A stretch of 64,000 nt of DNA from NCBI GenBank assembly GCA_002786355.1, contig PGCO01000002.1:310001-374000 (forward strand), given 5' to 3'. The DNA is from Sediminibacterium sp. FEMGT703S. GTDB taxonomy: Bacteria; Bacteroidota; Bacteroidia; Chitinophagales; Chitinophagaceae. The notes beneath the pieces were generated by a model. The model searched no databases. It saw nothing but the letters and a program-made list of their open reading frames with translations, and was not told the origin of the DNA. Within the stretch, counting starts at the first letter, position 1. Each line of letters begins with the position of its first letter. The position numbers were made by a program, and so were the translations under genes. Shown piece by piece: positions 1-9,862 of the stretch.

Positions 1-558
1 AAAATCAACTTCTTTCCAGAGTTTATCTGCTCTTGCGGCAATCTCTTTTTCTTGTTTATTCCCGTTTTTAAAATACTGTCGAACACATAATAGCCCTTGT
101 AACATAAAAGAACTCTCCACTAAATCACCTCCATCATCATATTTACTAAAAGGCTTCACTTTACCAGTCTTACCATTCCACCAATGTGGCCAAGCCCCAT
201 GAAAACGATCTGCTGTTTCTAAAAAATGTAAAATGGTTTCTAATCTTTTTACTCCTTGAGCTCTAGTAATGAACCCCCGCTCTATTCCAACCAAAATGGC
301 CATCACGCCAAAGCCACCCCCGCCACTAGTAACAACGTCTTGGTCGTTTTGCGGATAAATATTATCAAGATGTACCCTTTCCCTTGCTAGCCCACTCACA
401 GGTTCAGCACCATCCCAAAAATATTGAAAAGTAGCTGCCTGCACCTTTCTAAATAAAGCAGTATCATTGGCTGCAATTGGATCTAAACTCGCTCGTTTAT
501 TTTGTGCAATTAAAGAGGAACATATTAGCAGTAGAATCAGCAATAAAGATTTTTTCAT
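1..558 (-). CDS. GH144-type glucoamylase-like glycoside hydrolase, C-terminus outside window
   Basis: The first 186 residues of a secreted enzyme run off the left edge. The frame is open from ATG at 558 to base 1. Residues 1-20 form a signal peptide ending near SSLIAQ. The following sequence has features of the glycoamylase-like family (PF10091; GH144 endo-beta-1,2-glucanases): ATFQYFWDGAEPVSGLARER, TSGGGGFGVMA, HGAWPHWWNGKTG, and the acidic motif GGDLVESS with Asp145 and Glu148 spaced as in the family. Family members cut beta-1,2-glucan in the periplasm. It follows the SusC/SusD/LamG genes on the same strand and is probably the enzyme of that locus. The family call is firm. The exact substrate is inference, because the remaining catalytic region is not visible. 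Confidence 0.82.
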   Translation of the reverse strand, partial: MKKSLLLILLLICSSLIAQNKRASLDPIAANDTALFRKVQAATFQYFWDGAEPVSGLARERVHLDNIYPQNDQDVVTSGGGGFGVMAILVGIERGFITRAQGVKRLETILHFLETADRFHGAWPHWWNGKTGKVKPFSKYDDGGDLVESSFMLQGLLCVRQYFKNGNKQEKEIAARADKLWKEVDF

Positions 559-580
559 AAAATAATTTTATCAATCTAAA

Positions 581-602
581 ATACCCGCCCTAAGGCGGGT
601 AT
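581..602 (-). terminator. Intra-operon hairpin between LamG lipoprotein and GH144 genes
   Basis: A perfect 9-bp inverted repeat (ATACCCGCC, 4-nt loop, GGCGGGTAT) lies between the stop at 642 and the start at 558. Read on the minus strand it is followed by only a short T run (TATTTTAG). It is therefore either a weak terminator that reduces enzyme expression relative to SusC/D, or an mRNA-stabilising hairpin. Confidence 0.6.
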
Positions 603-641
603 TCGTCAATAATAAACCCAGTATTCAAACCAAAAACAAAT

Positions 642-1568
642 CTATTTACCCGCTAACCCTAAATTATAAAGTGCGCGAATATGAGCATCAGGTAAAGCAA
701 TATTATAAATTCGTAACTCATCAATTACACCCGTCATTGCTGCAAAACTTGCATCAGCACTGACCGATTTACCAGGAATTACATTATAATTTCCACCAAT
801 GATTACTTCACTTGGTTCTGCGGCTCTGAAATTATTATTTCCAGTACCTCTGCTAGGAAATGCTCCCGCTCTTAACCCATTAATCCAGATATCAAAAAAG
901 CCATTACTAGCATTATAATTCAACGCTAAATGAACCCATTTGCCAGGGCCAATAGGTGGAGTAATATAAGGCATATAGTTTGGCGCCCCAGGTGCATCCC
1001 TCAATGTATTGATATTGTCTTGTGTACCTCCTCCAATAGTAATAAAAGTTGGCTGAACTTTAAGATCAGTTACATTAGACGCTGGAAATGATTGAGTGTT
1101 TAGCGCAAAGTTTAAACTACCATTAAAAATGCCAGGTCTAGTTAATTGAAACAACATAGTCCGCCTAGAACCATTATTAGAAATCTGTATCCAAGTACTT
1201 ATCGCAAAACTTCTAAAAACATCTGTTTTAAAAGCATTAAACTGGGTGGGGTAATATAAAAATCCAGCATTTAACCTTAATGCTTGTCCTTTAACACCTG
1301 TTGAAACATAACTATCGTTCAAAGAAGTTCCAGGTGCAGTATTTGATTTTGTTTCATTTTTTGAATTATCGAAAGGCCAATAAGCAACCAGGCTTTCTGG
1401 AAACACTTCATCTGAAGAAGTAAATCCATCAATTTTTCCAATATAATCAGCAGTAGATACAGGAGGTAAATTATTTGGATTACCGTCTTTTTTACAAGAT
1501 ACCATCCAACTACTCAAAGCAAATAAACCCCAAAGCGAAAAGCTTATTTTATTATTTTTAAATTGCAT
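642..1568 (-). CDS. LamG (concanavalin A-like) domain surface lipoprotein
   Basis: 308 residues. A lipoprotein signal ends with the lipobox-like MVSCKK around residue 25, so the protein is probably anchored in the outer membrane. The rest is a single LamG/pentraxin-like jelly roll of about 230 residues: SLVAYWPFDNS at the start, SFAISTWIQI, GKWVHLALNYN and DIWINGLRAG in the middle, and MTGVIDELRIYN at the end, the last being typical of LamG_3. It sits directly after susD (22-bp gap), the usual place for a surface glycan-binding protein in polysaccharide utilisation loci. It probably binds the same glucan as its neighbours. No catalytic motif is visible. Confidence 0.85.
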   Translation of the reverse strand: MQFKNNKISFSLWGLFALSSWMVSCKKDGNPNNLPPVSTADYIGKIDGFTSSDEVFPESLVAYWPFDNSKNETKSNTAPGTSLNDSYVSTGVKGQALRLNAGFLYYPTQFNAFKTDVFRSFAISTWIQISNNGSRRTMLFQLTRPGIFNGSLNFALNTQSFPASNVTDLKVQPTFITIGGGTQDNINTLRDAPGAPNYMPYITPPIGPGKWVHLALNYNASNGFFDIWINGLRAGAFPSRGTGNNNFRAAEPSEVIIGGNYNVIPGKSVSADASFAAMTGVIDELRIYNIALPDAHIRALYNLGLAGK

Positions 1569-1590
1569 ATTACGATTTTTAAAAGTTCAA

Positions 1591-3141
1591 TTAATAGCCA
1601 GGATTTTGTTTCAAAACCCCTGCAGTTAAATCAATCTGCGCCTGTGGTATAGGTAACAATGCATCTCTTGCCGCATTAAAATTTGATTTACCTGCTGCGT
1701 TCATTACATTTTGAGCAATACCCCATCTAACAATATCAAAGAAACGATCGTGCTCCATCGCCAATTCAATTCTTCTTTCATGTCTAATTGCATCTCTTAA
1801 AACAGATTGATCATTGGTAGTAACATCTGGAAGGATGGCATTATTTCCGGCCCTGGCTCTAAATCGAACACTATTTAAAGCTGCTTTTGCAGCAGTAATA
1901 TTATTTGCCCCTCCTATCTCATTTGCTGCTTCTGCATACATTAATACTACATCTGCATATCTTAGAATACGAACGTTATTCCACCAACCAAATCTATTCC
2001 CTACAGCGGCTCTAGTTGTAGGATTGGTATGTACTTTATGATTATACCTAGGATTGGGTAAACCAACAGGAGTCACTTCGCCAAAAATGGTTACACCAGG
2101 TGTAGTTGGCGTACTAGTAAATAAAATCGTTCTTGCTCTACGAGGATCGTTAGGCTCATACGCATCAGCTAAAACCGCACTAGGCGAATTCCATCCCCAT
2201 CCCAAATCCCATGGACCCGCGCCTCTTACCCCTTGTAAATTGGTATATTGGATTCCTTGAGAAGTAGGATTAATTGCATCTGCTCTTGCTTGAACTTCAA
2301 AAACAGACTCTTTACTATTTTCACCTTCCTCAGAAAATATGGTGTTGTATGGAGTATTCAAATTGTATTGACCAGAATTCATCACCATATTGGCTGCATT
2401 CATTGCTTGCGCCCATTTCTTTTGCGTTAAATATACTTTTGCTAACATACCATTTGCAGCTCCACTAGTAATTCTTCCCGGGAATTTCACTGCATCCCAG
2501 AATGCGGGCAAATAGGCAGCAGCAAAAATGAGATCATTCTCAATAAATGAATAAACTTGATCAACACTGCTTTGAGGAACATTATTTTGTGCCGCAGGAT
2601 CAGCAAACAATGTATCGATGATTGGAACCCTTCCAAATAGTCTGGTCAACATAAAGTAAGAATATCCTCGAATAAATCTTACTTCAGCCTGAGATTGCAA
2701 TTTGATAGCATCAGAAGCTACGATTTGTTTATTAGTACCAATTTGAAATAAAGTATTATTACATCTATTGATTAAACCGTAATAGCCCGTCCACAATCCA
2801 TTTGATCTTGAACTATTTGGCAATACAGGAAAATTATCCATACTAATAACGTCTGCTCCACCATCTGAAGGGGTACTTCCTTTATCCGCATCATCGCTTC
2901 TGATACTTGTTGCATTAATGAAACCATCTACGTGAACATTGTAATCACGTAAACTATTGTAAGCCCCAAAAATGTATTGGTCATAAGGTCCTGAACCTCC
3001 TGGATAAGGATAGTTTTCTTCATCATAACCACCTTGCCTTGTGGTATCCAAGAAATTCTTTTTACATCCTGTTAAAACAGAAATGGTTAATAGCAGTAAC
3101 ATCCATTTACCGATGCTTTTTCTATTTATTAAATTATTCAT
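1591..3141 (-). CDS. SusD-like outer-membrane nutrient-binding lipoprotein (RagB/SusD)
   Basis: 516 residues from ATG 3141. An in-frame TTG at 3165 would add eight residues ahead of the signal peptide and is less likely. The signal peptide ends at the lipobox SVLTGCKK. The family's TPR-like fold is recognisable from QAEVRFIRGYSYFMLTRLFG, ANGMLAKVYLTQKKWAQA, RYADVVLMYAEAANE and the C-terminal RHERRIELAMEHDRFFDIVRWG with LLPIPQ. SusD proteins cap the SusC barrel and capture oligosaccharides at the cell surface. The gene follows susC closely, as is standard for these pairs. Confidence 0.96.
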   Translation of the reverse strand: MNNLINRKSIGKWMLLLLTISVLTGCKKNFLDTTRQGGYDEENYPYPGGSGPYDQYIFGAYNSLRDYNVHVDGFINATSIRSDDADKGSTPSDGGADVISMDNFPVLPNSSRSNGLWTGYYGLINRCNNTLFQIGTNKQIVASDAIKLQSQAEVRFIRGYSYFMLTRLFGRVPIIDTLFADPAAQNNVPQSSVDQVYSFIENDLIFAAAYLPAFWDAVKFPGRITSGAANGMLAKVYLTQKKWAQAMNAANMVMNSGQYNLNTPYNTIFSEEGENSKESVFEVQARADAINPTSQGIQYTNLQGVRGAGPWDLGWGWNSPSAVLADAYEPNDPRRARTILFTSTPTTPGVTIFGEVTPVGLPNPRYNHKVHTNPTTRAAVGNRFGWWNNVRILRYADVVLMYAEAANEIGGANNITAAKAALNSVRFRARAGNNAILPDVTTNDQSVLRDAIRHERRIELAMEHDRFFDIVRWGIAQNVMNAAGKSNFNAARDALLPIPQAQIDLTAGVLKQNPGY

Positions 3142-3165
3142 GGTTGAATATTTTTTTGCGTTCAA

Positions 3166-6100
3166 TTAAAATGTAACATTTATACCTACAGAATATACCG
3201 CAGGAACAGGGAATACTCCATTGTCGGCACCACCGCCTAAAATGCTTCCAATTTGTGCTTCAGGTGAATAACCGGTAACTTGGCTCCAGCTCTTAATGTT
3301 TTGGCCATTTATAAATACACGGGCTTTAGAGATACCGATTCTTCTTAATGCAGCGTCAGAAAAAGTATACCCAACTTGTAAAGTTCTTAATCTCAAATAA
3401 TCTCCTGGCTCTAAATAATAACTACTGAATAAGAAGTTATTTCCTCTTGTATTGTCTAAGATAGGTTCTACGTTGGTTGTACCTCCACCAGTCCATGCAT
3501 TTAATCTATTCGCCTCGTAATTTAAAGTTGCAAAATTTGCAATTCTGCGTTGCGTATAAATTTTGTTACCTGCAACACCTTGACCTTCTATTGTAAAGTC
3601 AAATCCTTTATAAGCCACATTGATATTTAAACCATAACTATATGGAGGAAAGGGTGTACCTAAAAAAGTACGATCTGCAGGTGACAATAAACCATCCCCA
3701 TTAATATCTGCATAAGCAATGTCTCCTGGTAAAGAATTATTGAAACGAGCCATTTTACCTAACTCAGCAGTAGATTGATAAATACCAATTTGTCTATATC
3801 CAAAGAAATATCCAATTGATTGACCTGTTTCTGTTAAGTTGGCTCCACCATTACCAAAAAGCTGAAAATTTATTCTATCTCCAATTGAATTAACGGTGTT
3901 TTTATTGTAGCTGAAATTGGGTGAAATAGAATAAGTGATTTCTTTACCAATCTTATCAGTCCAGTTTAAACTTAATTCGACCCCTTGATTGGTTATTTTT
4001 CCTAGATTGGTGAAAAAACTTCTGGTTTCATTCGGCAGAGTTACTGCTGTTAAAATATCTGAAGTAGTTCTGTTATAATAGGTAAACTCAACATTCAAAC
4101 GATTGCGGAAAGTTTTTAAATCAAATCCAATGTCTAATCCTCTAACAACTTCCCATCTTAAATTTGGATCAGGTATGTAAGCAGCTTGTATTGCGGTGTA
4201 TACATTATTACCAAAAATAGCGGTTGAAGCATTTGAAATACCTGGTCTAAACAAGTTATCAGCAAAACCATTTGCATTACCTGTTTCACCCCATGCAGCC
4301 CTAAATTTTAGAAAATTGATAAAATTGAATTTTCTAACAAATAATTCTTCAGATGCAATCCATCCTAAACCAACAGAGCCAAATGTACCCCAACGATTCT
4401 GTGGTGCAAACTTTGAACTTCCATCTCTTCTTACGGTTGCATTGATTAAAAATTTATTTTGATAAGCATAACTTAATCTACCAAACATACCCATAATGGC
4501 GCTCTCACTTCCACCGCCGCCATACAACCCTGGATTATTGGGGTTAATGGTACTCAAGTACCAAAAATCTGGGTTATTTGGAACATTCACTGAAGTATCT
4601 CTTCTATTACCATTGATATTTGTACTTACACTATAAATAGAAGTGAAACCAACCAACGCAGTTAACTTATGACCATTTCTTAATTGCTTATCATATGTAA
4701 GCGTATGATCTTGCTGGTAACGCTTAAATTCTGCCATCTCCTGACTTACACCGGTTCTGATTGTATTATCAAAGAAAGTAGTTGTTGGTGCTGTGCCCTC
4801 TCCTAAATTGATAAAAGTAAATGGCAATGGAGTATATGACCTAGAATTATTAAATCCAAGATCAGCAAAGAAAGATGACTTAAAAGTGAAATCCTTTAAA
4901 AACTTCACTTCTGCATATAATGAACCAATAAACCTAAAACCTTTATTGATATCTGTTCCATTATTTCGGTTTAATGCGGCTATAGGATTGCCTACTTGTG
5001 CACGCTGAAAGGAAGGCATGCTAAAGTAAGTGGTTGCATTTTGCTGAATTGGGACAATTGGTGCAGCCCATAATGCATTGGTTAAACTAACTCCTGCAGG
5101 ATTTTGAATCCAATGAAATGCATTGACTTCTCCACCAACTTTAATATTACTATTGAAACGAACTTCATGATTCAAACGAATCATATACTTCTCATAACTA
5201 TTGAATTTTACTACTCCGTCTTGTTTATTATATCCAATATTGAGATAAGTACTACTCTTTTCTGAATTATTAGAAACACTTAAGTTATTGGTTGTTAGCA
5301 ATGCATTCTGTAAAATTTCATTTTGCCAATTGGTATTTGCAGTGTAATTGCTATAATCGAATGGAGCAGCATTAATATTAGCCAATTGAGCGTCATACAA
5401 TTTTTTAAAACCAGCCGCATCGGTTACTTTAATTTTATCAACAACTTTTTGAAAGCCTACCGTACTTTGGAAATTGATTCTTGTTTGACCTCTTGCTGCT
5501 TTTTTAGAAGTGATAGCAATCACACCATTAGCTCCTCTTAAACCATAAATTGCAATGGATGAAGGATCCCTTAAGATATCAATCGTCTCAATATCTGCCG
5601 GATTTAAGAAATCTATATTGTCCTGTAAAATACCATCCACAACATAAACTGGGCTTGCACTATTTGTACTGTTCACGCCTCTTATTCTTACAACCGGACT
5701 TGCACCAGCAACACCAGAATTTGCTACCGTTAATCCAGCAACCCTACCCTGAAGTGAGCTAATTGGGTTGGTATTAGGCATTTTTGCCAAATCATCTCCC
5801 TTGATTGTTGTAACAGAACCGGTTAGGTCTCTTTTACGTTGAGTACCATATCCAGTTACTACTACTTGTTCTAAATTATTAACCGCAGCAATTAAAGAAA
5901 CATTCAAATCTCTTTTACCAGCAACTGGAATTTCTTGTGAGTCATATCCGACTGATGATATAAGTAGTTTAGCATTGTCATCTGCGACGGTAATGCTGAA
6001 TGCTCCATTATTATCTGTTGTGGTACCGACTTGTGTTCCTTTCACTTGAATGGATGCGCCACTTAAGGGTTCTCCTGAAGCAGATGTTATTCTACCCTTA

Positions 6101-6498
6101 ACAACAATCTCAGCTAATTCCTTGGTTGAGTTACTAGTTTCTTTTAGAACTACTAAATTAGTACCGAGTACTTTATAATTAATTCCAGTATTAACTAATA
6201 GCTTACCCAAAATTTCATCTAAAGTAGCATCCACCATGTTAATGGTTACTTTGGGCTTCCCTTTTACAACCTCTTCAGCAAATAAAAACCGATAATCCGT
6301 TTTTTTCTCTACTTCAAACAATGCTTTTTTAAGATCAAGAGAAGCCATCTTTATAGTAATCCGGCTTTGTGATAAACCGATTGCGGAAACTTGCATACAT
6401 ACAAGTAGCAGTAAAGCAGTAGTTATTTTCATGATTCGGGCAAGCTTTTGTATAAAAAGATCTTTGTGTGAAACAACAGGTGTTTCAATATTTTTCAT
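3166..6498 (-). CDS. SusC/RagA TonB-dependent transporter with STN signalling domain
   Basis: 1110 residues. A cytoplasmic stretch and signal peptide (residues about 1-45) come first. An STN secretin/TonB domain follows (about 50-115: ITIKMASLDLKKALFEVEKK, YRFLFAEEVV). Next are a carboxypeptidase-D-like domain (about 135-215: VKGRITSASGEPLSGASIQV), the plug (about 215-330, with VVTGYGTQRKRDLTGSV, SVYVVDGIL-type and DPSSIAIYGLRGANGVI), and the 22-strand barrel to the C-terminal Phe. It imports oligosaccharides with SusD using TonB. The STN domain allows contact with a FecR anti-sigma factor, and one is encoded just upstream, so transport and gene induction are probably coupled. Confidence 0.97.
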   Translation of the reverse strand: MKNIETPVVSHKDLFIQKLARIMKITTALLLLVCMQVSAIGLSQSRITIKMASLDLKKALFEVEKKTDYRFLFAEEVVKGKPKVTINMVDATLDEILGKLLVNTGINYKVLGTNLVVLKETSNSTKELAEIVVKGRITSASGEPLSGASIQVKGTQVGTTTDNNGAFSITVADDNAKLLISSVGYDSQEIPVAGKRDLNVSLIAAVNNLEQVVVTGYGTQRKRDLTGSVTTIKGDDLAKMPNTNPISSLQGRVAGLTVANSGVAGASPVVRIRGVNSTNSASPVYVVDGILQDNIDFLNPADIETIDILRDPSSIAIYGLRGANGVIAITSKKAARGQTRINFQSTVGFQKVVDKIKVTDAAGFKKLYDAQLANINAAPFDYSNYTANTNWQNEILQNALLTTNNLSVSNNSEKSSTYLNIGYNKQDGVVKFNSYEKYMIRLNHEVRFNSNIKVGGEVNAFHWIQNPAGVSLTNALWAAPIVPIQQNATTYFSMPSFQRAQVGNPIAALNRNNGTDINKGFRFIGSLYAEVKFLKDFTFKSSFFADLGFNNSRSYTPLPFTFINLGEGTAPTTTFFDNTIRTGVSQEMAEFKRYQQDHTLTYDKQLRNGHKLTALVGFTSIYSVSTNINGNRRDTSVNVPNNPDFWYLSTINPNNPGLYGGGGSESAIMGMFGRLSYAYQNKFLINATVRRDGSSKFAPQNRWGTFGSVGLGWIASEELFVRKFNFINFLKFRAAWGETGNANGFADNLFRPGISNASTAIFGNNVYTAIQAAYIPDPNLRWEVVRGLDIGFDLKTFRNRLNVEFTYYNRTTSDILTAVTLPNETRSFFTNLGKITNQGVELSLNWTDKIGKEITYSISPNFSYNKNTVNSIGDRINFQLFGNGGANLTETGQSIGYFFGYRQIGIYQSTAELGKMARFNNSLPGDIAYADINGDGLLSPADRTFLGTPFPPYSYGLNINVAYKGFDFTIEGQGVAGNKIYTQRRIANFATLNYEANRLNAWTGGGTTNVEPILDNTRGNNFLFSSYYLEPGDYLRLRTLQVGYTFSDAALRRIGISKARVFINGQNIKSWSQVTGYSPEAQIGSILGGGADNGVFPVPAVYSVGINVTF

Positions 6499-6561
6499 AT
6501 TTTCAAATTGAAAGGGTTATGAATTACATACAGATTGAACAGTTTGTTTTTTTCTAAACCT

Positions 6562-6591
6562 GGCGGAGTTCCGCGCCAACGGAACTTCGCC
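6562..6591 (-). other. GC-rich hairpin in the fecR-susC intergenic region
   Basis: Two 11-bp arms (GGCGGAGTTCC and GGAACTTCGCC) separated by 8 nt pair with one mismatch or wobble, in an otherwise AT-rich 137-bp gap. There is no T tract after it on the minus strand, so it is not a plain intrinsic terminator. It lies in the probable 5' leader of susC or the 3' end of the sigma/anti-sigma transcript and may limit read-through. Confidence 0.6.
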
Positions 6592-6635
6592 CAATTTTAT
6601 GTTGAATTCAGTCTTAATCTCATATGGCAGCAATT

Positions 6636-7730
6636 TTATTGGTAAATAATAATCGTATTTCCTTTTTGGATTGTCTTAAATGGTATAATTAGTTTTAAGG
6701 CTTCTATTGCTTGGTCAACCGTTTCTTTTTCAAAATTTCCATTCATTCTGTTCAATTTTAGACCTTCAGATTGAATTTCAATCTTCACATTATACCAGCG
6801 TTCCATCATTATGGCGAGCTCTTCAAATGTTTGGTCTCTAAAAACGAGCTTATTTTCTACCCATTGATTTTCTGCTACAGAACTATCTGGTGTAATAAAC
6901 TTCAGCTTATTAATAGATACCGCAGGCAAAAGGTCAATTGTTTTTTGCTTTTTTTGTGCTTCAATCAATTCATTTTCAACTATCAATTTTTCATTGGGAG
7001 ACAAAATGATTTTATCGTCTGGTCTATTTTTGATAGTGACTTCAATTCTTCCTTTTATAAGACTTGTTTCTGTTTGTTTGTCTTCAGGATATGCTTTTAC
7101 ATTAAACACTGTACCCAGCACTTTTATCCTGATACTTTTGGTATTAATAATAAAGGGAACTTCCTTATTTTTTACAACATCAAAATACCCCTCTCCTGTT
7201 AAGGATACTTCACGTGTTGTTTTACCAAAATCCTTTTGATATTCAAGTTTGCTCCCTCCATTTAACCATACAACAGATCCATCAGGTAATTTTACTTGAG
7301 ACTTTGACCCCAATCTTGTAGAAATTTCATTCAACGCTGGTTCCTTCTTTACAATTGATTTTATTGTTGTCTCTTTAGTAAAAAAATAGAACACACCAAT
7401 AATCATTATCATTGAAGCTGCAGCATAATAGGCCCATTTAGGAATAAATTGAGATAGACTAAACTTTGGCGGATGGAGAGAAATAATATTATCCTTTTTT
7501 AAATCAAATTGATCGTTTTCGGCCAATTTATTTAAATGAAGCATAAATGCATCTTCAGCTTTTTCTTTATTGTAAACCGGGGGAATTTCCCAGATATTCT
7601 CAAGCTGTTGAACTGCAAACTGCCATTCAGGATGGTCCTTAATAGATTGGTTAAGCTCAATAAGTTCTTGCTCATTAGCTTCGTTTGCAATCTTTTTAGC
7701 AATTAATAACCAAAATCGTTCCTGACTCAT
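6636..7730 (-). CDS. FecR-family anti-sigma factor
   Basis: 364 residues. The N-terminal cytoplasmic part (1-95, beginning ERFWLLIAKKIANEANEQE) is of the DUF4880/FecR N-terminal type and would bind the sigma factor. One membrane segment is at about 99-117. The periplasmic FecR domain follows (about 140-235: RLGSKSQVKLPDGSVVWLNG, REVSLTGEGYFDV, VLGTVFNVKAYPEDK). The C-terminal DUF4974 domain (about 280-364: LVFRDQTFEELAIMMERWY, MNGNFEKETVDQAIEAL) contacts STN domains. It sits between its sigma gene and susC, the usual trans-envelope cell-surface signalling arrangement. Confidence 0.95.
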   Translation of the reverse strand: MSQERFWLLIAKKIANEANEQELIELNQSIKDHPEWQFAVQQLENIWEIPPVYNKEKAEDAFMLHLNKLAENDQFDLKKDNIISLHPPKFSLSQFIPKWAYYAAASMIMIIGVFYFFTKETTIKSIVKKEPALNEISTRLGSKSQVKLPDGSVVWLNGGSKLEYQKDFGKTTREVSLTGEGYFDVVKNKEVPFIINTKSIRIKVLGTVFNVKAYPEDKQTETSLIKGRIEVTIKNRPDDKIILSPNEKLIVENELIEAQKKQKTIDLLPAVSINKLKFITPDSSVAENQWVENKLVFRDQTFEELAIMMERWYNVKIEIQSEGLKLNRMNGNFEKETVDQAIEALKLIIPFKTIQKGNTIIIYQ

Positions 7731-7791
7731 TGTTTTATTTAGTTCCTATACTATAACAACTGAGTAGTGCTTTTACCCCTAAGAAGATAAA

Positions 7792-8400
7792 TTATTTTTT
7801 AATTTTTTTCTCTAAAACCGGTTTGGGTTGAAGGTCAACCGGCATACTTTGAGCCATTCTACGCATTGCGATGGCCATTTGCGCCTCTACTGTTTTTACA
7901 GAAATAGATAATAATTCTGCAACTTCTCTGTATTTTAATCCATCCTCTTTAATTAACTTGAATATCAACCTGCAGCGATTCGGAAGGCTATTAATGGCCA
8001 TTTTGATTTTCAAAACCATGTCTTCTGTAATCATTAATAAGTCGGGCCTAAAATAAATACTATTTAACTGAACCTGCCATTCGTCCATTGAAAGCCCTGC
8101 TCTTCTCTTTTGCTTTTTTAATAAATTCAATGACATATTTCGAACAGTTGTATAAAAATAATACAACGGAGACTCTAGCTGACAAAGCTGTTCTTTCCGT
8201 TGTATAATTAAAATAAATAATTCAGAAACAATATCTTCTGCTTCTTCTTCAGACCTTACAATAGAAAAAGAAAATTGCTTTAATTTCCCGTGTAATTGAA
8301 TAAATAAAGTACGATATGCCGACTGATCATTGTTATAAGCAATCGCAATCAGCAAATCTTTAATTTCCTCATTTCCCCCTACTGAATTCGAAGAATGCAT
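7792..8400 (-). CDS. ECF (sigma-70 family) RNA polymerase sigma factor
   Basis: 202 residues. Region 2 is visible at about 25-95 (AYRTLFIQLHGKLKQFSF, SEEEAEDIVSELFI, YYFYTTVRNMSLNLLKKQ). Region 4 is at about 130-185 (INSLPNRCRLIFKLIKEDGL, YREVAELLSISVKTVEAQM). It should direct polymerase to the susC promoter when released by the FecR protein encoded 61 bp downstream. The ATG at 8400 lies inside the 3' end of the upstream S10 peptidase gene (32-bp overlap). No later Met precedes region 2, so the overlap seems real. Confidence 0.95.
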   Translation of the reverse strand: MHSSNSVGGNEEIKDLLIAIAYNNDQSAYRTLFIQLHGKLKQFSFSIVRSEEEAEDIVSELFILIIQRKEQLCQLESPLYYFYTTVRNMSLNLLKKQKRRAGLSMDEWQVQLNSIYFRPDLLMITEDMVLKIKMAINSLPNRCRLIFKLIKEDGLKYREVAELLSISVKTVEAQMAIAMRRMAQSMPVDLQPKPVLEKKIKK

Positions 8401-9862
8401 CTACGTCTTTTTTAAATTGCACTAGTGATGGTTTGTGAATATAGTACATATGACCTGATTCGTAAAAATAGAACTTCACATTTTTTCTTTGTTCGGGTCT
8501 TAAAAACATATGTTCAATATCGTATTGGGCAGTAAAATAAGGTGTCGCAAAATCATAGTAACCAGCTCCCATATATACTTTTAAATCTGGGTTCTTACTC
8601 ATGGCATCTCTTAAACTTTCAGCAACATTTAAAAATTGGTTTTGAACATTACTATAATTCCAAGGATAAACTTCTCCAAAAATATTGTACCCGTTTTCTT
8701 CTTTAAAGTTTAATTCTCTTTGAAAATAATCATTTATTGTTGCCGTAAAAGGCCCATCAATATTGGCAAAGGATGGATCAAAGCTGTTGACTTCACCAGC
8801 ATCATCTAAATCTCTTCCTGTAAACCTAGCATCTAAACGGCCGATGCTTAATCCATCTTTTCGTCTAAGCTCTTTATAAAATCGGCTCTCTTCTACTCTT
8901 AAGTTTGCTTGCAAACAATACTCTTTAGACAAACCAGTATAATAACTCATTTTCTCGGCAATGGCATTCTTTTCAGATTCGGTTAACCACCCGCCTTTAA
9001 TCAGTGCAGACGCATAAGGTCCAATTGCAAAAGCTTCCGCTTCTTTCAAAGCATTTTGCAAATTAGCTTGTAAAGCTGGAGCTAATTTTTTATGGTACCA
9101 TGCTGCAGCTGTATAAGAAGGAATATATAAAGCCCTTGGCAAATCATTCCCCACATAATAATCATTAGTGCCAAAATTAAGCACAGCTGATATCATGAAA
9201 ATTCCATTTAAGTAAATTCTGTGCTTGTCTTGTAAATATTTGGATAACCCAGCAGCCCTTGTTGTACCATAACTTTCACCAGCTAAGTATTTTGGAGAAC
9301 CCCATCTTTCATACCTAGATAAAAAATGTCTGATGAATGATGCCATAGAAGCAACGTCTTCGTTAAACCCATGAAACTGTTTAGGATTCTCACCTGGAGC
9401 AGGTCTGCTAAAACCTGTTGAAACCGGATCAATAAAAACCAAATCGGTTTTGTCTAACCAACTGTATTCATTGCTAATAAAAGAATACGGAGGACCTTCA
9501 GAAAACCCTTCATCGTTAAACTGAACTCTTTTAGGGCCTAATCCTCCCATATGCAACCAAACAGATGATGAACCAGGACCACCATTAAAAGTGAATGTAA
9601 CAGGTCGCTTTATGGCATCATCTCCGTCTTTTTTGTAATAAGTAAAGAACATTTTTGCTATTAACTTACCGGTATCATTTTTCAAATGCAAGTAACCGGT
9701 GTAAGCAGTATAGTCTACTTTTTTTCCAGCAATTGTAACACTATTCTTTGTTGTTACTACTGAAACACCTGCAGGTGTAGGCTCAATAACAGGCGCAGTT
9801 TTTTGTGCTTGTAAAAAAGAAATGGGCACGAATAAAATAAAAAAGAAAAGATACTTTTTCAT
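8369..9862 (-). CDS. Secreted serine carboxypeptidase, peptidase family S10
   Basis: 497 residues with a clear signal peptide (MKKYLFFFILFVPISFLQAQ). S10 alpha/beta-hydrolase motifs are present: the oxyanion segment TFNGGPGSSSVWLHMGGLGP at about residue 90, the nucleophile motif GESYGTTRAAG at about 190, the Asp in YYDFATPYF near 435, and the His in YESGHMYYIH near 470. Together these form a Ser-Asp-His triad. It probably removes C-terminal residues from peptides in the periplasm. Its 3' end overlaps the sigma gene by 32 bp, so the two may be cotranscribed, although a functional link to the glucan locus is not evident. Confidence 0.93.
   Translation of the reverse strand: MKKYLFFFILFVPISFLQAQKTAPVIEPTPAGVSVVTTKNSVTIAGKKVDYTAYTGYLHLKNDTGKLIAKMFFTYYKKDGDDAIKRPVTFTFNGGPGSSSVWLHMGGLGPKRVQFNDEGFSEGPPYSFISNEYSWLDKTDLVFIDPVSTGFSRPAPGENPKQFHGFNEDVASMASFIRHFLSRYERWGSPKYLAGESYGTTRAAGLSKYLQDKHRIYLNGIFMISAVLNFGTNDYYVGNDLPRALYIPSYTAAAWYHKKLAPALQANLQNALKEAEAFAIGPYASALIKGGWLTESEKNAIAEKMSYYTGLSKEYCLQANLRVEESRFYKELRRKDGLSIGRLDARFTGRDLDDAGEVNSFDPSFANIDGPFTATINDYFQRELNFKEENGYNIFGEVYPWNYSNVQNQFLNVAESLRDAMSKNPDLKVYMGAGYYDFATPYFTAQYDIEHMFLRPEQRKNVKFYFYESGHMYYIHKPSLVQFKKDVDAFFEFSRGK

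Follow-up and report, generated by a model that had tools for sequence, protein, structure and literature searches.

Polysaccharide utilisation loci (PULs) of Bacteroidetes that contain a GH144 enzyme are, in the passages of PMC6499787 (Nat Commun 2019) that deal with them, loci for beta-1,2-glucan and are among the abundant PULs. For the marine GH144 PULs these passages name a sulfatase as the added gene, not an EEP phosphoesterase, a GDPD or an SGNH hydrolase. The locus described here occupies the left end of a 64,000-nt window (the whole stretch of DNA analysed, C8:310001-374000 on contig PGCO01000002.1) of Sediminibacterium sp. FEMGT703S, whose assembly consists of 16 contigs and 3.22 Mb and is 99.97% complete. 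It runs from the gene of an extracytoplasmic function (ECF) sigma factor through fecR, susC, susD, a LamG lipoprotein gene and a GH144 gene to genes coding an EEP protein and an SGNH hydrolase. SusC/SusD and GH144 are shared with the PULs of those passages, whereas a single GH144 accompanied by EEP and SGNH, with a GH3 and a GH30 that lie apart in a locus of their own, sets the present system apart. The locus type is known; its dedicated phosphoesterase, whose substrate would be a decorated glucan, is the new part.

CpSGL of Chitinophaga pinensis (PDB 5gzh, 5gzk) is a characterised endo-beta-1,2-glucanase, whereas the GH144 protein of the locus is known here from sequence alone. The two are homologous over their full length, since phmmer against the two CpSGL chains gave E 1.4e-211 and 2e-211 (residues 23-447); weaker matches were putative glucoamylases and BDI_3064. 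Residues D141, D145, E148 and E217 align with D135, D139, E142 and E211 of CpSGL, whose mutants suffer a strong loss of activity according to the relevant part of PMC12102758, in which the E211 position is the general acid and E142 the most plausible base. Full-length similarity and the kept catalytic residues assign the predicted enzyme to GH144. Together with the PF10091 match they support an earlier note on this DNA, which had proposed a GH144-type enzyme and hence a beta-1,2-glucan substrate. It is very probable that the locus imports and cuts beta-1,2-glucan. CpSGL's own locus was looked for among the loci read out (the L numbers used below) but not recovered, a peptide of CpSGL matching none of their open reading frames (ORFs).

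The association of the EEP protein with GH144 rests on its subfamily, because a plain count of neighbourhoods was not significant (see below). At E 1e-20 the EEP found 47 places in 98 genomes of the family; the three best matches after itself (63, 58 and 52% identity) are GH144-linked and the remainder are at most 46% identical. At E 1e-72 matches were present in 16/394 family genomes, 13 of which, its own included, exceeded 300 bits. Each of the 12 non-self EEPs above this score lies no more than about 10 kb from a GH144 ORF (stretches of ~20 kb). The two are directly adjacent in nine and in the same gene run in one (L071), while in L289 and L290 a GH144 that is 45-48% identical to that of the locus lies ~3 kb away with opposite-strand genes between. 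Weaker EEPs, some of them on short stretches, have GH144 in 1/12 cases: 0/3 within the family (248-266 bits) and 1/9 in the class outside it (254-291 bits; L301). The class search gave 13 places, of which two outside the family were left out (G777 and a third one in G701). The difference between 12/12 and 1/12 has a Fisher p of 5e-6.

In a tree of 41 EEP rows the 11 in-cluster EEPs (the present one, L150, L151, L152, L154, L155, L046, L067, L095, L071 and L170, a duplicate of L071) form one clade with 100/99 support that contains none of the 26 rows taken to be unlinked. Four further rows labelled as near GH144, three from Pedobacter (opposite strand) and one from Fulvivirga, lie outside it. 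The 26 rows were first taken as unlinked since no GH144 place was near among the matches listed; GH144 was then found in the 1.5-kb flanks of 0/26 and in 0/6 wider stretches. Two of these 26 EEPs have a GH30-like (L235) and an SGNH-like (L247) neighbour. Judged by sequence, the EEP of the locus belongs to a GH144-bound subfamily. In two loci of the class (L297, L299) an EEP is paired with a GDPD-like ORF beside SusC.

The predicted EEP model (pLDDT 92) has TM-scores of about 0.86-0.92 to 3mpr (a B. thetaiotaomicron relative), 3g6s and BT3783. Among relatives with a named function the mannosyl-6-phosphatase BT3783 (PDB 4c1r; model TM 0.86-0.90) comes nearest. It has the same fold and the conserved motifs, and over 266 aligned columns it is 38% identical. 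The conserved EEP motifs have catalytic roles. BT3783 differs in belonging to another subfamily, whereas the EEP of the locus sits with GH144 and would act on a substituent of its glucan.

Genes around GH144 were compared within the family, a sample of which has a GH144 match at E 1e-60 in 120/195 genomes. The 61 neighbourhoods, mostly ~20 kb, are the present one and 60 chosen among the matches listed (56 genomes, four of which gave two places each). The present one is represented by its left side only (L002, the stretch of the same genome beyond the window edge), which keeps its own SusC, SusD, LamG, FecR and sigma factor out of the counts. Forty other SusD neighbourhoods, chosen from about 150 among the matches listed, served as controls; their stretches are displaced downstream of SusD and four are shorter. 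The counting profiles derive from the same 61 neighbourhoods and are biased toward the GH144 side, so three E-value cut-offs were used; Pfam names of neighbour families were taken from representatives. At E 1e-20, LamG was found in 39/61 neighbourhoods vs 0/40 controls, SGNH in 27/61 vs 0/40 (p 6e-8), GH3 in 34/61 vs 3/40, GH43 in 27/61 vs 1/40, GH30 in 17/61 vs 2/40, an alpha/beta esterase in 12/61 vs 0/40 and GDPD in 4/61 vs 0/40 (p 0.13). Controls at E 1e-5 rose to 2 for SGNH, 2 for EEP, 1 for GDPD and 2 for the esterase (of 40). By these counts SGNH and LamG clearly accompany GH144; for EEP and GDPD the count alone does not show this. The SGNH protein itself matches PF13472 with 55 bits and carries, by eye, the blocks GSSS, GEND and DNLH; the family is defined by Ser, GxND and DxxH blocks.

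Alignment of SusD provided a second collection of 79 loci, those ending at contig edges included. GH144 was present in 69, LamG in 54, the alpha/beta esterase in 24, SGNH in 21, EEP in 11 and GDPD in 9. SusD is 90-93% identical to that of the Sediminibacterium loci L152-L156 and of the Sphingobacteriia metagenome-assembled genome loci L150 and L151, which places the organism in or very close to Sediminibacterium. In the seven near relatives' loci that extend past GH144 (L150, L151, L152, L154-L157; the L153 stretch ends at SusD) SGNH is found in 7/7 and EEP in 6/7, one of the six interrupted by a stop (L156) and L157 having none. Other genera with the same SusCD have GDPD after GH144 (L163, L174, L176, L205, and a fragment in L162), an esterase followed by GDPD (L166, L168) or an esterase alone (L158, L159, L167, L172, L206); in L170 the order GH3-EEP-SGNH-GDPD lies farther downstream. 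Among 47 loci with GH144 and a SusD of at least 57% identity, EEP or GDPD occurs in 17 (three opposite-strand Pedobacter EEPs included), SGNH or esterase in 32 and neither in 10. Compared with the GDPD of L065, the full-length GDPDs of relatives' loci show 52-67% identity; by eye, most of them resemble lipoproteins. The surveys based on SusD and on GH144 are not independent because several records are shared (such as L163 = L065 and L168 = L050).

The earlier note had placed any beta-glucosidase past the left edge and suggested looking there for GH3 and GH144 partners. A beta-glucosidase at that place is not supported: no GH3 is found there, the genes that follow GH144 being EEP and SGNH, and PF10091 has one match in the whole genome, the GH144 of the locus. 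The genome has four GH3 genes, the nearest on this contig about 70 kb away. The matching one is on contig C15 (L106:8139-10409 minus); most GH3s from the GH144 neighbourhoods of relatives have it as their best match (38 matches, 32 at 55-78% identity, the remainder down to 32%). It lies 27 nt from a GH30 gene (L106:10437-11840 minus) whose product matches all 27 GH30-classed ORFs of those neighbourhoods (at 29-60% identity; the best fourteen reach 55-60%). Since both match genes that relatives keep near GH144, this genome probably divides the system between two loci. BT3567 (5xxl), which we take to act on beta-1,2-oligosaccharides, is among the closest solved relatives of the C15 GH3, not the very best. 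A B. thetaiotaomicron enzyme of this type is mentioned in a part of PMC11842490. The GH30 would fit beta-1,6 branches of Group 1 osmoregulated periplasmic glucans as described in a section of PMC10514313.

The proposed pathway follows the gene products. SusD and LamG would capture the glucan at the surface and SusC would import it, its STN domain passing a signal to the sigma factor by way of FecR. Once the glucan is in the periplasm, GH144 may cleave the backbone, while EEP would take off a phosphate or phosphodiester-linked group and SGNH ester groups; GH3 and GH30 of the second locus would then degrade the oligosaccharides to glucose. Substituents on the beta-1,2-glucans of Gram-negative envelopes are documented in parts of PMC10514313 and PMC11842490, namely phosphoglycerol, succinate and phosphoethanolamine. 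The chances that the substrate is a decorated beta-1,2-glucan are about even. The full proposal, a PUL for foreign beta-1,2-glucans bearing phosphate-containing and acyl groups (shed osmoregulated periplasmic or cyclic glucans, for example), is given a little better than even probability.

The glucan is probably foreign, because MdoG has no match in this genome and the single PF10091 match is GH144 itself; no sign of own synthesis was seen, without a profile search dedicated to cyclic glucan synthases. A PF10091-like part would be expected in such synthases.

Several observations weigh against decorated glucans as the target. EEP was not enriched in the first survey (5/61 vs 1/40 at E 1e-20, p 0.23), most GH144 loci lack both EEP and GDPD, and among the same-genus genomes only 2/10 (the present one and G370) have an EEP at E 1e-72, eight being without. 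In two near relatives the gene is broken or missing: it is stop-interrupted in the Sediminibacterium locus L156 (the same as record G370/L288) and there is none in L157. The substrate of BT3783, the closest relative with a named function, is a mannose phosphate, and we know of no biochemistry for the EEP or SGNH of such loci. The present locus has no GDPD, and the genome's sole GDPD match is 23-27% identical, over long alignments, to the GDPDs of relatives' loci. The scarcity and losses of EEP would be expected if this were a plain beta-1,2-glucan locus in which EEP and SGNH are a carried-along accessory phosphatase and esterase of unrelated or general use. This we regard as rather unlikely, since the EEP subfamily is nearly confined to GH144 loci and forms one clade, SGNH is enriched and the GH144, EEP and SGNH genes are separated by gaps of only 2 and 6 nt.

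The GH43 found in 28/61 GH144 neighbourhoods is likewise not explained by beta-1,2-glucan. It would be accounted for by a larger heteroglycan with beta-1,2-glucose as one linkage, different parts of which are attacked by GH144, EEP and SGNH and, in relatives, by GH43, GH30 and a sulfatase. GH43 with an F5/8C domain (28/61) and GH30 (17/61) are frequent neighbours, a sulfatase is present in L047, and marine GH144 loci with sulfatase are described in a part of PMC6499787. The present locus, from the sigma factor to SGNH, carries neither GH43 nor any other glycosidase family by Pfam, its sole glycosidase belonging to the beta-1,2-glucanase family, and a heteroglycan target is considered clearly improbable. 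A specificity of the PF10091 enzyme for something other than beta-1,2-glucan would agree with the Pfam description 'Putative glucoamylase' and with three solved relatives that bear this name. It is hardly credible for a protein whose closest solved relative is CpSGL and whose catalytic residues are kept; even exo-acting GH144 homologues cut beta-1,2-glucan chains in the accounts found in parts of PMC11842490 and PMC8861115.

Returning to decorated beta-1,2-glucans, a broader proposal is made tentatively and held at somewhat less than even confidence: a Chitinophagaceae phosphoesterase subfamily, perhaps interchangeable with lipoprotein GDPD, may be dedicated to phosphate-decorated beta-1,2-glucans and, with SGNH or alpha/beta esterases, would strip osmoregulated periplasmic glucans. 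In the open-licence literature no report was found of GH144 with exonuclease-phosphatase or GDSL proteins, and for GH144 with a phosphodiesterase only PMC6499787, in a passage on loci without known CAZymes (carbohydrate-active enzymes). Nor was a description found there of bacterial removal of phosphoglycerol, phosphoethanolamine or succinate from foreign glucans. If the proposal holds, shed envelope glucans would be a food for which neighbours compete, and such public food might explain the commonness of GH144 loci. EEP, GDPD, SGNH and the esterase constitute a short list of candidates for removing glucan substituents.

The coordinates and Pfam domains of each gene (Table 1) confirm the minus-strand order sigma, FecR, STN-SusC, SusD, LamG, GH144 given in the earlier note. 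At the level of domains they also bear out its putative signalling architecture of sigma factor, FecR and a SusC with STN domain, and they confirm that the enzyme gene continues past the left edge. With adjoining susC and susD genes and a CAZyme gene on the same strand the locus is a SusC/SusD PUL. Intergenic distances are 61 nt (sigma-FecR), 137 nt (FecR-SusC), 0 nt (SusC-SusD), 22 nt (SusD-LamG), 83 nt (LamG-GH144), 2 nt (GH144-EEP), 6 nt (EEP-SGNH) and 60 nt (SGNH-Crp), the gene of a Crp-type regulator being the next one after SGNH. The sigma factor ORF and an S10 peptidase gene overlap by 32 nt, at the 3' end of the latter.

Table 1. Features of the GH144 locus in window coordinates, or in those of stretch L002 for genes beyond the left edge.
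Feature	Position	Strand	Length	Assignment
ECF sigma-70 factor	7792..8400	-	202 aa	Pfam Sigma70_r2/r4
FecR anti-sigma factor	6636..7730	-	364 aa	Pfam FecR + FecR_C
Terminator-like hairpin, fecR-susC gap, antisense to susC	6562..6591	+		Possible 3' end of a DonS-like antisense RNA
SusC/RagA TonB-dependent transporter with STN signalling domain	3166..6498	-	1110 aa	Pfam STN/Plug/TonB barrel
SusD-like predicted glycan-binding lipoprotein	1591..3165	-	524 aa	Pfam SusD_RagB + SusD-like_3
LamG-fold lipoprotein candidate	642..1568	-	308 aa	Pfam Laminin_G_3; likely surface glycan-binding protein
GH144 endo-beta-1,2-glucanase (predicted), N-terminal part	1..558	-		PF10091, 276 bits (cut-off 27)
GH144, whole gene	L002:16213-17559	-	448 aa	
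EEP, past left edge	L002:15368-16210	-		Exo_endo_phos, PF03372
SGNH/GDSL hydrolase, past left edge	L002:14693-15361	-		PF13472

By a rule applied to the sequences, with no dedicated program, LamG and SusD each have a lipobox, while GH144, EEP and SGNH have signal-peptide-like leaders and no lipobox. LamG has a lectin-like jelly-roll fold in its predicted model. Its fold search lists at the top the receptor-binding domains of clostridial neurotoxins, together with domains of a GH43 arabinanase (TM about 0.5), a likeness that in the model is one of shared jelly-roll fold only. A role of LamG as surface glycan binder, as the earlier note proposed, is plausible in view of its lipobox, its fold and the frequency of this LamG family at GH144 loci. 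A looser lipobox rule was passed by 61/67 long copies of GH144 from other loci, and also by 75/140 short ones; a long-type lipoprotein GH144 acting generally as a surface enzyme was set aside on this ground and no claim is drawn from it.

DonS-type RNAs of Bacteroides PULs are 78-128 nt long and encoded divergently to susC, as described in a part of PMC7366714. The gap between fecR and susC contains, on the plus strand, a hairpin of 12 pairs followed by CAATTTTATG, a short T-run; one terminator-like site was found vs 0.5 expected. Many susC ORFs of the family, though not all, are preceded by a similar hairpin at a distance of about 70-105 nt, or nearer in a few cases. Of 32 located, 29 were aligned with that of the window (L080, L117 and L124 were dropped) and 22 rows were kept for the pair count after removal of L214, L056, L162, L205, L059, L065, L130 and L209; all eleven dropped rows are shifted or odd in shape. 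On the antisense strand 90.2% of cells pair in these rows, a percentage that leans high because the rows were chosen as hairpins, with two-sided changes at 12/12 pairs; a one-column-off control gave 51-53% pairing.

Beyond the rows used to build it and those discarded, a covariance model picked up seven places (E 0.004 to 0.14). Five are at a susC start on the antisense strand (L049, L060, L091, L099, L145), that of L091 on both strands and those of L049 and L091 overlapping a called ORF start; the other two are elsewhere (L141 and a second place in L049). The model had one match in this genome, for which 150 of 231 first-look candidates were scored. Rfam gave no match in window positions 1-9000, only a sub-threshold sroH fragment. 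Sigma-70 and Bacteroidota promoter patterns showed no clear excess over shuffles, and the promoter consensus no plus-strand match near susC. The covarying hairpin is a likely terminator of a putative DonS-like cis-antisense RNA. The likeness to DonS, as presented in that part of PMC7366714, is an antisense element over the susC leader on a similar scale, with the difference that the element here is known from a terminator-like hairpin alone and lacks a promoter match.

The relatives' loci vary in further ways. In L156/L288 (Sediminibacterium sp. C3) a stop ends the EEP ORF after 178 aa. The gap of 399 nt from fecR to the SusC ORF may mean that the SusC start is disturbed too; decay or sequencing error would account for this. 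In L084 a ~960-aa gene, with Reg_prop repeats and weakly matching LuxR, precedes SusC in place of sigma factor and FecR, and Pedobacter loci have a gene of ~960 aa ahead of SusC too. Some GH144 loci are thus under another regulator, by domains in L084 and by size only in Pedobacter. The GH43 neighbour mentioned above, with an F5/8C domain in four representatives, is odd for a pure beta-1,2-glucan. A ~1100-aa protein (FG-GAP/ASPIC in one representative) occurs with one or two GH30 genes in relatives' GH144 loci, L055, L066-L070, L095 and L283-L285 among them. Five GH144 loci (L068, L072, L076, L081, L096) run on into a module of GFO/IDH/MocA dehydrogenase and ROK kinase, hinting at another fate of the sugars there. 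The sulfatase of L047 (PF00884, L047:15496-17001, plus strand) follows GH3 in its GH144 locus and is a further possible decoration enzyme.

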